Of a stretch of 64,000 nt of DNA, positions 22,026 through 26,202 are shown piece after piece; positions within the stretch are counted from its first letter, which is position 1; the number at the start of each line of letters is the position of its first letter. The notes below the pieces were generated by a model. That model was not told the DNA's origin. It made no database searches and saw only the letters and a list, made by a program, of their open reading frames with translations. The stretch lies in NCBI GenBank assembly GCA_947499935.1, contig CANMQH010000001.1, positions 124,001-188,000 on the forward strand, read 5' to 3'. Both the position numbers and the translations under genes were made by a program. This stretch comes from an uncultured Algibacter sp. (GTDB taxonomy: Bacteria; Bacteroidota; Bacteroidia; Flavobacteriales; Flavobacteriaceae).

Positions 22026-22057
22026 ATTTTTAAGCTGAAGAATTTGGCTTAAATTTT

Positions 22058-22114
22058 AGTTTATACAAAAAGGCTACTTAAAATCATATTTTAAGTAGCC
22101 TTTTTGTATAAACT
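22058..22114 (+). terminator. 27-bp perfect inverted repeat (terminator-like) after galE
   Basis: Bases 22058-22084 are exactly the reverse complement of 22088-22114, with a three-base loop. The stem core AAAAAGGCTACTT / AAGTAGCCTTTTT gives terminator character on both strands. It is much longer than the usual terminators in this window and abuts the lspA remnant that starts at 22117. Confidence 0.9.
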
Positions 22115-22116
22115 AC

Positions 22117-22216
22117 TGCTTCTCGGTAGTTTTTTTGTTCTTAATCATGTTATCATTAAAATTATCATACCTGTAGTAACTAATAAATCTGCTAAATTGA
22201 AGATACGGGTTTTAAA
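22117..22216 (-). pseudogene. Remnant of the lspA 3' end (direct copy of 25688-25788)
   Basis: About 100 bases match the 3' end of the intact lspA gene at about 90 percent identity by eye, in the same orientation. Translated on the minus strand it reads IFNLADLLVTTGMIIL and, after a one-base deletion, MIKNKKTTEK; the intact gene has IFNLADLSVTTGMIIL and MIKNKKTIEK. Weaker similarity may run on to about 22250. The two copies bracket the accessory genes at 22597-25628. Confidence 0.85.
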
Positions 22217-22596
22217 AACTAGACGCGATAAGAATAAGAACGGTTTGTTTTATCTATTATACATATTTTAATGGTTAGCGGGGTGCTATTATTAATTTAA
22301 AGTAACGATAAGTAGTATTTGGTAAAAGTGAAAACCATCAATTTACGGAAAAACCACAGCATAAATTTAAATAACAAGATAAAGACTATAAAAAATAGCA
22401 AATAAACGTATGTTAATTGTTATTTTTTCTTCATATTTATAATTTTTAAATTAACTTTAATTTCCCTAATTAAAGTTAATAGTGTTTTGCTAACCTTATG
22501 TGCTAGCTGTTCGTATCTTAGTGCGTTACAATATTAAGGTGTAATTCATTTTTGTATACATGAACTTTTTTAAATTTTAAATAAACCATAACACAA
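22217..22596. other. Intergenic region upstream of the lipoprotein block
   Basis: About 380 AT-rich bases. No coding frame is supported beyond the possible extension of the lspA remnant. A GC-richer patch at about 22338-22360 (ATTTACGGAAAAACCACAG) stands out from its surroundings and could be a regulatory site for the operon at 22597, but I cannot test that. Confidence 0.35.
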
Positions 22597-24168
22597 ATGA
22601 CGAACAAATTAAAAAACTTCCTTAAAATTGTTACATTAATTCTATTTGTAGGATGCAATGAAAACTCTGAACCTATTTTGGAGCAAGAACAACAAACAGA
22701 AAGCTTAACAAATACCTATTACACTACAAAAGTTACTCTTGATGATATTCCCGAAATTTCATCTTACTTGGGTGTAGACTCTAAAAAAGGGTTGGTTTCT
22801 AAAAATGGTAGCCAAAAGGCTATTTTTAATTTTGATGAAATTTTAGAAGTGGTTGACACTCTTGGGCATACCAATTATTCCATAAACTTCTCCATGGTAG
22901 ATACGCCGTACAATGTTATGTATAATTTGGTTGTCGGGGTAGACGCTTTAGGGCAAAAAACTAATCCGCTTATATTAAAACTTACGAGCGATAAAGACAG
23001 CTATAAATCATGGGCAGAAAATAATTTTGATTTTTCACATTTTACAGGAACTTTAGATTTGCATAAGTTTTCAAGTTTTTTCGGTGATTTTACACGTTTT
23101 AAAAATACGACTTCAAAAAATGATTGTATACAGTTTGATGCCCAAGGCGACCCCATACCTTGTAACAGAAATAGAATAGAGGGAGGAAACCCAAATTCTG
23201 GAGGAGGTAGACCCAATGGCGGTAGAAATACAGGTGGAGGTTCAGGTGTTGTTACTACACCAGATAATTCTGGGTCGGGTTGCACCATTAATACCTATTG
23301 GCGTACCTGTGGCGGCTCTAATGAATATGATGCGCACGGCTCATCTACATGTGGTGGTGATGGTGGCGGAGCAGGATGGGTAATTTCCATTAACTGTGGT
23401 AATAACGGTGGCAGTAATCACCGACCACCACTTGAATTTAATAAAAATAGCACTACAGGAAATAGCGACTGTACCGATTGTAATACTGGTTTATCTGGTG
23501 GGGTTGGTGTTAACACGGGTGTCGCCATGCGAATAGATATTCTTGTTGATAACTTACACCAGGAGATTGGTTTAACACCAACTGAAATAAGGTTTCTTAA
23601 AAAACAGGACAATTGGGAGTTAACGGGTAAGGTTATTTCTTTTTGGAATACTAGTGATAAAACAGATGAAGCTAAAGCGTTTGTTAAGTACGCAATTAAA
23701 ATTTTAGAAGCTAATCCTAATGCTAATCCGTTTTTAGGTGCAGATTGTAGAAGTTTTGAATATGCCAAACCCCCCGGAGCATTACAAAGAGGTTGTGCTG
23801 TAAAAGATTTTGATCATACGTTTTATACTGCTGGTGTTAGGTCTAATGGTAACTCATATTATGGTGAAATTGATGTTCCTGTTAATCTTTTGTATTTTAC
23901 CATGCCAACCTGGATGACCAATGGTCGTGCGGCTAATCTCACTGCAGTAGCTGTTACTGGAGCAATAAAGGCTACAGACGTGCACTTTTTTAATAATCCA
24001 GATATTAGTAAACATAGATTAGCAAGTTTTTTTAGAGACCAACTTAAAACCCAAATGGCTTCAGTTGGTGGTCGTTTTAGTACAACTATAGCTCCTTTTC
24101 CAATACGTAATCCAGCACCTTATATTACTAGTATTTTGGGTATCAGTAATCCTTTTGATTGTGAATGA
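22597..24168 (+). CDS. Lipoprotein with Cys/Gly-rich linker and unknown C-terminal domain
   Basis: A 523-residue protein that I do not recognise. Residues 1-20 are a lipoprotein signal (LILFVGC, Cys20). About 21-170 is a mixed alpha/beta domain (TKVTLDDIPEISSYLGV, then repeated strand-like segments). About 180-300 is a Gly/Asn/Ser-rich, Cys-containing linker (GGGRPNGGRN, CTINTYWRTCGG, CGGDGGGAGW, DCTDC). About 303-523 is a separate domain with IDILVDNLHQEIGLTPTEIRFLKKQ, KDFDHTFYTAGVRSNGNSYYGEIDVP and HRLASFFRDQLKTQ. The layout of lipid anchor, flexible linker and terminal domain recalls delivered effectors. Its stop overlaps the start of the next gene by four bases (ATGA). Calling it a toxin is inference; it could equally be a surface adhesin or ligand-binding protein. 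Confidence 0.7.
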   Translation: MTNKLKNFLKIVTLILFVGCNENSEPILEQEQQTESLTNTYYTTKVTLDDIPEISSYLGVDSKKGLVSKNGSQKAIFNFDEILEVVDTLGHTNYSINFSMVDTPYNVMYNLVVGVDALGQKTNPLILKLTSDKDSYKSWAENNFDFSHFTGTLDLHKFSSFFGDFTRFKNTTSKNDCIQFDAQGDPIPCNRNRIEGGNPNSGGGRPNGGRNTGGGSGVVTTPDNSGSGCTINTYWRTCGGSNEYDAHGSSTCGGDGGGAGWVISINCGNNGGSNHRPPLEFNKNSTTGNSDCTDCNTGLSGGVGVNTGVAMRIDILVDNLHQEIGLTPTEIRFLKKQDNWELTGKVISFWNTSDKTDEAKAFVKYAIKILEANPNANPFLGADCRSFEYAKPPGALQRGCAVKDFDHTFYTAGVRSNGNSYYGEIDVPVNLLYFTMPTWMTNGRAANLTAVAVTGAIKATDVHFFNNPDISKHRLASFFRDQLKTQMASVGGRFSTTIAPFPIRNPAPYITSILGISNPFDCE

Positions 24169-24719
24169 TGAAAAATATTTTTGCCCTGTTGTTAATTTTT
24201 ATTTTATATTACAAAAGTTATATGATAAATCATATTAAGTTTGAGGAATTATTAGGAAAACATGTCTCTAAGTTTGAAGATAGCATTGGAATCGATTTTG
24301 AAAACACTCTTTTTCAAAAGAGTTTTTATTATATATCTGATGAATTTACAAAGAAACATTTCTATGGTATGGAATACAACATGGTGGATATTATAACTAA
24401 TGAAGATCAGAAAGTACAATCTATCTCTGTGCTTTTTAGAAAAGTGATTGATAGCCAATTTTACAATGCGTTTATTGTAAACTATGGAGAGCCTGATCAT
24501 ATTCAAGTTGTCTTAAATAAAAAAGAAATAAAAGAAGATTACCCAAAAGAGAATAACAATGATTTTACTCGCAATGCTAAGAAATACGAAATTGAGCTAA
24601 AAGAAGGAAGTTTCAATGAAAAACCATTATATATTATTTGGAAAAAAGATAATTATGAGATTAAGGCATTTCTAAGACATAAGCAAAACATGAGTGAAAT
24701 AACGTTTAGTATAAAATGA
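24165..24719 (+). CDS. Small paralogue 1 with N-terminal membrane segment (immunity-like)
   Basis: A 184-residue protein of no family I recognise. The ATG at 24165 overlaps the previous stop (ATGA), implying translational coupling; an ATG at 24168 is equally possible. Residues 1-20 are hydrophobic (NIFALLLIFILYYKSY), an uncleaved anchor or signal without a clear cleavage site. From residue about 25 (KFEELLGKHVSKFEDSIGIDF) onward it is related to the 158-aa protein encoded at 24962. The last 30 residues (KPLYIIWKKDNYEIKAFLRHKQN...) are nearly the same in both. The position after a lipoprotein with a variable-looking C-terminus, plus a tandem paralogue, is the pattern of immunity genes, but that is inference. 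Confidence 0.7.
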   Translation: MMKNIFALLLIFILYYKSYMINHIKFEELLGKHVSKFEDSIGIDFENTLFQKSFYYISDEFTKKHFYGMEYNMVDIITNEDQKVQSISVLFRKVIDSQFYNAFIVNYGEPDHIQVVLNKKEIKEDYPKENNNDFTRNAKKYEIELKEGSFNEKPLYIIWKKDNYEIKAFLRHKQNMSEITFSIK

Positions 24720-24961
24720 AAATAATGTTATATTACAGTTCGTAAAATAGCAGTTAACAATCAAGTTTTGTAGTTTTTTATTAAGAATAAATAACTTTAC
24801 TCCGCTAACTTTTATATGTGGAAATGTTAATTAACACTTATCTAAAATAAAAGTGTATTTTACATAAGTGTTCCATTTCATCAGACTATAGGCATTGTAA
24901 ATAATTAAAAGTTATATTATTTATTATAGCCCTAATTCAAAATTATTATTTTGTAGAATAT

Positions 24962-25438
24962 ATGGAATTTGAGAATCTTTTAGGGAAAGACCTTTTAAGT
25001 GTTGAGAAAATTATTGGTATCGATTTTGTAAAAAAAGATTATGGTTATCCTTTTTACATTGGTGAATACTTTAATAATGATTTTTTTGGGATGGAGTGTA
25101 GCCATATAACTTTACTAACAGATGATAAAGATATGTTACAATCTATTTCTATTCATTTTCCTAAAATACTTAACCGTAAATTTTATGATTTGTTTATCAA
25201 AAAATGCGGAAACCCTGATAATATTCAAGTAATTGAAAATAGAAAAATTGAGAGTAAGTCTTTCGTAAAAGATGATAATGGTAAGGTTGTTCAAACGTTA
25301 AGAAAGAGTACTTTTGATTTAAGAGAAGGTAGTTTTGAAGAAAAGCCTTTGTATATTATTTGGAAAAAGGACAACTATGAAATTAAAGCCTTTCTTAGAC
25401 ATAAACAGAATATAAGCGAAATAACGTTTAGCATGTAA
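24962..25438 (+). CDS. Small paralogue 2, soluble form (immunity-like)
   Basis: A 158-residue protein, paralogue of the preceding gene but without its hydrophobic N-terminus. It begins MEFENLLGKDLLSVEKIIGIDF, aligning with KFEELLGKHVSKFEDSIGIDF of the other copy. Shared landmarks are FFGMEC / FYGMEY, LQSISIHF / VQSISVLF, GNPDNIQVI / GEPDHIQVV and the C-terminal KPLYIIWKKDNYEIKAFLRHKQN. In the last 30 codons the two genes differ at about 15 synonymous sites and one amino acid. It is separated by 242 bases from copy 1 and followed by a decayed frame. Function unknown. Confidence 0.7.
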   Translation: MEFENLLGKDLLSVEKIIGIDFVKKDYGYPFYIGEYFNNDFFGMECSHITLLTDDKDMLQSISIHFPKILNRKFYDLFIKKCGNPDNIQVIENRKIESKSFVKDDNGKVVQTLRKSTFDLREGSFEEKPLYIIWKKDNYEIKAFLRHKQNISEITFSM

Positions 25439-25439
25439 T

Positions 25440-25628
25440 AAATATTTTTATGTAGACAATAAGAAACTGCCAGAAAGTTATATAAAAGTGTATTCGTTTA
25501 TCATCGATGGTAATAATATTAATGTTGAGTTATTTTACAATGTAGAAGGTGTTAATATTACTTGTAAACTTATAAAAAACGGTAATGATAAATTGGAAGT
25601 AGTTAATGTAAGTTTTATTGAAATTTAG
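25440..25628 (+). pseudogene. Start-less C-terminal reading-frame remnant
   Basis: A frame open from 25425 to the TAG at 25626 encodes about 60 residues with normal-looking composition (YFYVDNKKLPESYIKVYSF, then GNNINVELFYNVEGVNITC) but has no ATG and no room for one before the upstream stop at 25422. It looks like the 3' end of a third gene whose 5' part was lost. The remaining frame could start only at GTG 25488. I see no homology to the two paralogues before it. Confidence 0.5.
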
Positions 25629-25683: not shown

Positions 25684-26202
25684 TTATTGTTTCTCGATAG
25701 TTTTTTTGTTCTTAATCATCGTTATAATTAAAATTATCATACCTGTAGTCACCGATAAATCTGCTAAATTAAAGATGCCGGTCTTAAATACACCACCTAA
25801 ATCTATAAATAAGAAATCTGTTACTTTTCCAAAAGCAATTCTATCAAAAACATTGGCAATCCCACCACCTATAATACTAGCAAATGCAAAAAGAGACCAG
25901 TTGTTAAGTGTTTTGTCTTTAAATACATAACGTAACACATACCCTAGAACAAGAATAGGTAAAATAAGTAATAATATAATTCTTAGACTTTCATTAAGTT
26001 CGCTCCCCATACCAAGAAAAGCGCCTTCGTTTTCCACATTCATCATAATAAAAGCATCACCAATTAAAGGAATGCGTTCACCAGAATTTATTTCTGTTCT
26101 TAAATCTACATGTTGTCTTACCATCACTTTTGAAATTTGGTCAACGGTAATCGTTAATATGATTACTAAAATGATAAAGATGGAGCGTTTAGATAATTTC
26201 AT
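25684..26202 (-). CDS. lspA: Lipoprotein signal peptidase (signal peptidase II)
   Basis: A 172-residue protein with four membrane helices. The first conserved region is DQISKVMVRQ; the catalytic Asp residues are in GGGIANVFDRIAFGKVTDFL and IFNLADLSVTTG (the FNxAD motif). It cleaves the signal of prolipoproteins at the +1 Cys after lipidation, which matters here because the window encodes many lipoproteins. It starts seven bases after the fabD stop, so fabD-lspA form a unit. Its last 100 bases are duplicated at 22117-22216, and the block of accessory genes sits directly downstream of its stop. Confidence 0.95.
   Translation of the reverse strand: MKLSKRSIFIILVIILTITVDQISKVMVRQHVDLRTEINSGERIPLIGDAFIMMNVENEGAFLGMGSELNESLRIILLLILPILVLGYVLRYVFKDKTLNNWSLFAFASIIGGGIANVFDRIAFGKVTDFLFIDLGGVFKTGIFNLADLSVTTGMIILIITMIKNKKTIEKQ
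25688..25788 (-). repeat. lspA 3' segment, partner copy of the direct repeat at 22117
   Basis: These bases are the intact member of the imperfect direct repeat pair (about ten differences and one indel in 100 bases, counted by eye). They code for the last 33 residues of LspA. The two copies lie about 3.57 kb apart. Confidence 0.85.

Follow-up and report, generated by a model that had tools for sequence, protein, structure and literature searches.

A modular lipoprotein and its adjacent small-protein family in an uncultured Algibacter sp.: a probable polymorphic toxin–immunity cassette

A stretch of 64,000 nucleotides from an uncultured Algibacter sp. (Flavobacteriaceae; GenBank assembly GCA_947499935.1, contig CANMQH010000001.1, positions 124,001 to 188,000; the whole stretch is called the window below) carries a block of three forward-strand genes that we propose to be a polymorphic toxin–immunity cassette. 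The first gene (22597..24168) encodes a 523-amino-acid (aa) lipoprotein, the proposed toxin, whose N- and C-terminal parts occur with different partners in relatives. The second (24165..24719) overlaps the first by the four bases ATGA and encodes a 184-aa protein with a hydrophobic N-terminal segment, proposed to be the cognate immunity protein, and the third (24962..25438) encodes a 158-aa relative of the second. These open reading frames (ORFs) and their overlap agree with an earlier description of the same DNA made without database searches (the sequence-only reading). That description also took the small proteins to be paralogues, and they are indeed homologous: identity is 33% across the 141 aligned residues of the first part and 92% in the final 36 residues. 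The source genome (3.96 Mb in 91 contigs, 99.95% complete) contains a single match to the large protein; the immunity protein has two, both within the window. Below, L numbers denote fetched loci or regions and G numbers sampled genomes, and names of flanking genes come from reading their translations.

The large protein starts with a lipoprotein module (N-module; residues 1–200, 22597..23196, alignment A7), whose signal-like sequence, read directly, ends in FVGC with Cys20 as the expected lipidation site. A Gly/Cys/Asn-rich linker follows (about residues 201–302, 23197..23502, also by direct reading); both the anchor and the linker had been noted before. The remainder had been treated as one unrecognised domain spanning residues 303–523. 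Its tip indeed remains unrecognised, and it forms a separate C-terminal toxin-like domain (C-domain; residues 375–523, about 149 residues, 23719..24165) defined by alignments A3 and A6 and a structure model. The preceding ‘pretoxin’ segment (about residues 303–372, 23503..23712) is common to relatives with other C-termini.

The C-domain is rare and occurs on several carriers. A search of genome contigs with A3, a five-row alignment of the domain, gave 16 loci; A3 also met the domain in 3 of 395 genomes of the class, and an 18-row C-domain alignment met it in 5 of 375 genomes of the phylum, both counts including the source genome. Each of the class and phylum searches had one match dropped as doubtful before the 22 loci considered below were counted: L061, a 102-aa frame with a weak match, and L183, a weak match inside an 844-aa protein that reads as helicase-like. 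Almost every locus carries the label Flavobacteriaceae or that of one of its genera (Aquimarina, Dokdonia, Flavobacterium), and one just Bacteroidia. The C-domain sits on the N-module in the window, L007, L043, L045, L053 and L055, on a secreted part of about 560 residues in L044, L046, L048, L054 and L057, on another lipoprotein part in L050, L056 and L058, and on further N-terminal parts in L047, L052 and L060. All but the N-module group were sorted by reading, and any match of the N-module profile to these proteins was confined to the signal region. Phages gave no tblastn match to the whole protein and plasmids none to the C-domain alone, and none of 14 pattern matches in viral contigs was confirmed. 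PADLOC gave no match at E up to 1, and PHROGs just matches at E 0.16 and 0.21.

Swapping was seen in the other direction as well. The whole protein matched in 21 of 397 family genomes, and an N-module profile (a 16-row alignment to which about a dozen of the matched genomes supplied rows) in 77 of 397 at E ≤ 0.001, 41 of them below 1e-9 in a table counted by hand. This puts the carrier module in roughly 10 to 19% of the sampled family genomes, depending on threshold, with some of the weakest matches spanning just the first ~50 positions, the signal region. Around the stronger matches 40 regions were fetched, an ORF scan of which yielded 37 N-module proteins 300 aa or longer, and 33 of these 37 were given to Pfam. 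Domains above the cut-off were AHH on three of the 33 (L003/L111, L124, L129), WHH with colicin-DNase on one (L008/L114), and DUF6973 on L133 and L135. Below the cut-off were a GH19 chitinase in L130 (25.1 vs 25.5 bits), DUF4056 in L145 and SprT-like domains in L011 and L128. The remaining proteins gave no convincing match. What we take to be an HExxH-like motif was found by eye in several other N-module proteins, with no family above cut-off. Since AHH, WHH/colicin-DNase, DUF6973 and other C-termini all occur on N-module proteins, one carrier has many tips. An ORF of at least 100 aa begins within about 100 bases of the stop codon in 33 of the 37 proteins (by reading), including that of L136, which looks like a continuation of its own gene. 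In L133 and L135, DUF6973 lies near the carrier C-terminus and is followed by small genes with lipoprotein-like starts, which makes it a candidate toxin domain. The window proteins had no Pfam match at E up to 10 and two NCBIfam matches only, far below the cut-offs.

The small downstream gene is paired with the C-domain. In 20 of the 22 C-domain loci the next gene downstream is an immunity-family ORF; the 22 comprise the window, G001, 16 named loci, fragments in G176 and G119 and divergent loci in G671 and G924; L049 was kept in this count despite its broken toxin frame. Loci other than G119 were found by toxin or C-domain sequence, and five of them contributed their immunity proteins as rows to the immunity model. 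C-domain and immunity distances are strongly correlated across 17 intact pairs (Mantel r 0.88, p 0.0001), and r is still 0.85 over the 127 locus pairs with a C-domain distance above 0.3. The hand-labelled N-terminal type correlates weakly with immunity distance (r 0.20, p 0.03) and not clearly with C-domain distance (r 0.09, p 0.15). Immunity divergence tracks the C-domain far more than it tracks the N-module label. In L101 (G176), an 885-aa protein that reads as another carrier type (Pfam named no domain in it) and a small gene are followed by a 59-aa C-domain leftover and its intact immunity gene, as would be expected had an older cassette been displaced. The 885-aa protein itself (L101 1304–3961) is secreted and has an HNH-like end by eye, so this second carrier type may also swap tips.

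A hydrophobic N-terminal stretch (mean hydropathy at least 2.0 over 11 residues) was found in 23 of 32 immunity relatives, compared with 0 of 109 internal windows. It was more frequent in cognate than in other copies (16/19 vs 6/13, Fisher p 0.049), a weak difference that we did not rely on, with rows sorted by hand and the second window copy counted as lacking the segment. Pfam gave six families, each in one of the 32 rows with a best E of 0.0071, and thus no consistent match. The AlphaFold model of the 184-aa protein has a mean predicted local distance difference test score (pLDDT) of 83.9, and its best Foldseek match is 4ifa (E 1.7e-3). Its look-alikes are mostly periplasmic or extracellular proteins, plus one Rhs immunity protein, and none is decisive. 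The C-terminal part of TagH (Z 7.9, root-mean-square deviation (rmsd) 4.1, 104 aligned), YjgB (Z 7.8, rmsd 5.3, 120 aligned) and the Rhs immunity protein 6xtd_B (Z 5.7, rmsd 3.9, 108 aligned) were not taken as evidence of family membership.

The second window copy is nearer to the L004/L047 immunity protein (57%) than to the first copy (45%). The 158-aa gene is therefore likely to be an orphan immunity allele matching another toxin variant, and not the product of a recent duplication. For the 92% identical tail, gene conversion between the copies was considered and rejected; the tail can be explained by conservation, since in this part the DNA of each copy is about as close to other loci (0.76–0.81) as to the other copy (0.81). 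The sequence-only reading gave a membrane segment to one copy alone. This holds for the listed ORFs, but the second frame stays open upstream to 24905 and encodes a hydrophobic segment (24905..24961, forward strand) akin to the one in the first gene. The first codon of this extension, TTA, comes straight after a stop codon, and the extension contains no ATG, GTG or TTG up to 24962. Extra immunity copies also occur in L045, L046, L054 and L056. In L056, one toxin is followed by three consecutive immunity-family genes. A 320-aa protein made of two tandem immunity-family domains is encoded in L041 (1411–2373) and L100 (4559–5521), with no C-domain ORF found in the 10-kb stretch.

Among 18 C-domain rows, C10, S12 and C148 of the domain are invariant, E14 and Y59 are present in 17 and N68 in 16, and the conserved positions are mostly small, aromatic or structural. 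None of the 18 rows had a Pfam match at E up to 0.1. The structure model (mean pLDDT 89.4, predicted template modelling score 0.85) has two long strands, two helices and short further strands. A sequence-profile search for solved relatives gave nothing clear (best E 0.096), and the best Foldseek E against solved structures was 0.14. SPFH domains were rejected as a fold match, as the best Z was 4.8 over 91–97 aligned residues at an rmsd of 3.4–3.8 and the likeness possibly reflects a mere common arrangement. The predicted fold is thus confident and has no clear solved counterpart, in line with the earlier failure to recognise a toxin fold.

The block is flanked by an insertion signature. Upstream, at 22114..22219 on the reverse strand, lies a decayed duplicate of the lspA 3′ end; it is a direct repeat of the 3′ end of the intact lspA downstream (25685..25791, reverse strand), with 91% and 87% identity in two ungapped pieces, and is broken as a reading frame. 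In G006, whose galE homologue is the most similar among the compared relatives (87% identity), galE and lspA are 152 bases apart. Eight such regions were fetched and both genes were found in six (L171, L172, L173, L174, L176, L177), where the toxin and immunity proteins had no tblastn match; three relatives have an amidohydrolase-like gene (by reading) between galE and lspA. Because of the duplicated lspA end and the toxin-free galE–lspA neighbourhoods of relatives, the block seems to have been inserted at the 3′ end of lspA. Compared as a possible mark of foreign origin, base composition is 0.306 for the block, 0.37 for the toxin gene, 0.259 and 0.27 for the immunity genes and 0.324 for the window. 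The surroundings were earlier thought to be free of housekeeping genes, which does not hold, as an aminotransferase and a galE-like epimerase lie upstream and lspA and fabD downstream. Behind the second immunity gene, a forward-strand open frame of 62 codons without a start (25440..25628) is a possible gene remnant and matched nothing among the fetched loci at E up to 1. Just 3′ of galE, a perfect inverted repeat with 28-base arms and a 3-base loop (22057–22115) is terminator-like.

We propose that the locus is a polymorphic toxin–immunity cassette acquired by horizontal transfer, and put the probability of this at roughly 0.83. The large gene would encode a lipoprotein in which the N-module and pretoxin segment form a reusable carrier. 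Its last ~149 residues would be an undescribed toxin domain, with a long beta hairpin and two helices and probably closed by a disulphide, that would act on a neighbouring cell. The overlapping 184-aa gene would provide the cognate immunity protein, exported or anchored by its hydrophobic N-terminus and able to neutralise the toxin, and the 158-aa gene a spare allele from a related toxin variant. The sequence-only reading had already suggested a toxin–immunity locus; the swapping in both directions, the co-varying downstream genes and the nuclease domains on the same N-module strengthen that view, and the large protein did not prove to be a full-length conserved adhesin or enzyme of known fold. 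If the C-domain is a toxin, we lean towards a membrane or envelope target, since there is no visible catalytic set and the immunity protein is of an export type.

Several observations weigh against this proposal. The C-domain has no catalytic signature, with His, Asp, Lys and Arg each in fewer than 14 of 18 rows at every position, and 27 of the 33 scanned N-module proteins have no Pfam domain above cut-off. At the divergent C-domain loci L105/L181 and L182, the small genes that follow are unrelated, and the G119 fragment was met via its immunity gene, which lowers the bias-free count to 19 of 21. When clustered into three groups, the C-domain and immunity groupings disagree for some loci (e.g. 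L051, L056). Nine of the 32 immunity relatives miss the hydrophobicity threshold, and the 23 that reach it include the second window copy read from a non-start codon. Small genes standing without the large one in most genomes would, in the sequence-only reading, speak against such a locus, and the outcome is divided: immunity relatives occur in 14 of 397 family genomes; in 7 of these a whole or fragmentary C-domain immediately precedes the gene, and in the other 7 no C-domain ORF was found within about 4–5 kb. Among the latter, G257 has a shortened N-module protein upstream, G362 an N-module protein with another C-terminus, and in G068 the immunity gene itself is broken. Orphan immunity genes are common in toxin–immunity systems, and these lone genes were therefore not counted as a refutation.

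How the protein would reach a neighbour is less certain. The lipobox was judged by sequence pattern: 25 of 55 carrier proteins have the strict pattern, 19 of them with at least two acidic residues at positions +2 to +6. The other 30 include ten with NC at the expected position, five of the secreted carrier type, which has no lipid anchor, and several whose true start is missing from the ORF call. The genome encodes a TssC of family PF17541 (E 2.5e-239), which we take to mark subtype iii of the type VI secretion system (T6SS), has no PF05943 match, and has 88 matches to sorting domains of the type IX secretion system (T9SS). These components would suit a variant, compatible with our proposal in all but delivery, in which the toxin is T6SS or T9SS cargo instead of being handed over from the cell surface. 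We consider this unlikely, because the toxin has a lipoprotein-type signal, none of the listed sorting-domain matches lies on it, and T6SS effectors are normally loaded from the cytoplasm. The acidic residues resemble the surface-export signal of Bacteroidetes lipoproteins as outlined in the part of PMC5080379 consulted, and the 523-aa protein is probably lipidated and exposed at the surface; its delivery may be contact-dependent.

A toxin–immunity pair could also act in the cytoplasm, for example through a nuclease, with the hydrophobic N-terminus of the immunity protein serving only as a membrane tether or bypassed by internal starts. Several immunity relatives do carry a Met immediately ahead of the folded part, a position near which some extra or orphan copies start (the second copy of L054, L035, the second window copy), and nuclease domains occur on the same N-module elsewhere. 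Yet the genes directly 3′ of the AHH and WHH relatives (L111, L114, L124, L129) lack a hydrophobic N-terminus by reading, most immunity copies beside this C-domain have one, and the two invariant cysteines suit an oxidising compartment; cytoplasmic action therefore seems improbable, and the cell envelope the most likely site. It is very improbable that the locus is no weapon at all and instead encodes a surface lipoprotein whose binding or enzyme domain works with a periplasmic partner or chaperone. The best look-alikes of the immunity model, mostly periplasmic or extracellular proteins of other roles, would suit that view, but module swapping, orphan immunity copies, nuclease domains on the carrier and patchy distribution form the pattern of a conflict system.

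Neither the toxin-like domain nor the immunity family of the locus has a counterpart among the curated families searched. More speculatively, and with considerable doubt, Flavobacteriaceae may possess a widespread, undescribed class of surface-lipoprotein toxins whose lipid anchor serves delivery by membrane-to-membrane contact, the C-domain being a new, non-enzymatic, envelope-attacking fold with a periplasmic immunity family.

In the open-access literature, covered mostly at abstract level and so weak evidence of absence, we recognised no description of the carrier module, C-domain or immunity family. As in polymorphic toxin systems generally, a constant N-terminus carries exchangeable C-termini, and a neighbouring downstream immunity gene tracks the C-domain; the point of difference is that the C-domain and immunity rows have no consistent Pfam match. 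N-terminal domains with a lipobox and polymorphic C-termini are described for Amoebophilus, where they are predicted to act on the host, in the portion consulted of Zhang et al. (2012, PMC3482391). TANFOR proteins are likewise from Bacteroidota, with AHH, WHH and other C-termini and downstream immunity genes; most have Sec signals and a T9SS link was suggested, according to the excerpts of PMC7073777 consulted. The window protein gave no TANFOR match in Pfam and just choice_anch_C at E 0.23 in NCBIfam, the presence of a TANFOR model in these libraries being unconfirmed, and the 16 N-module rows had no NCBIfam match at E up to 0.01. A further likeness by description is to SitA/SitI of myxobacteria, lipoprotein toxins with conserved N-terminal escort parts, varied C-termini (a WHH nuclease included) and a downstream immunity gene; the window protein shares the lipoprotein signal by pattern (FVGC). 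SitA C-termini are nucleases that target the cytoplasm after outer-membrane exchange, as far as the consulted parts of PMC5562445 and PMC8546572 go. In contrast, the present locus belongs to another phylum, its immunity proteins look exported, and the compartment of action probably differs. As far as tested, the carrier module appears to differ from the SitA and TANFOR carriers. With this locus it can be tested directly if surface lipoproteins of Bacteroidota serve as contact weapons, like those of myxobacteria.

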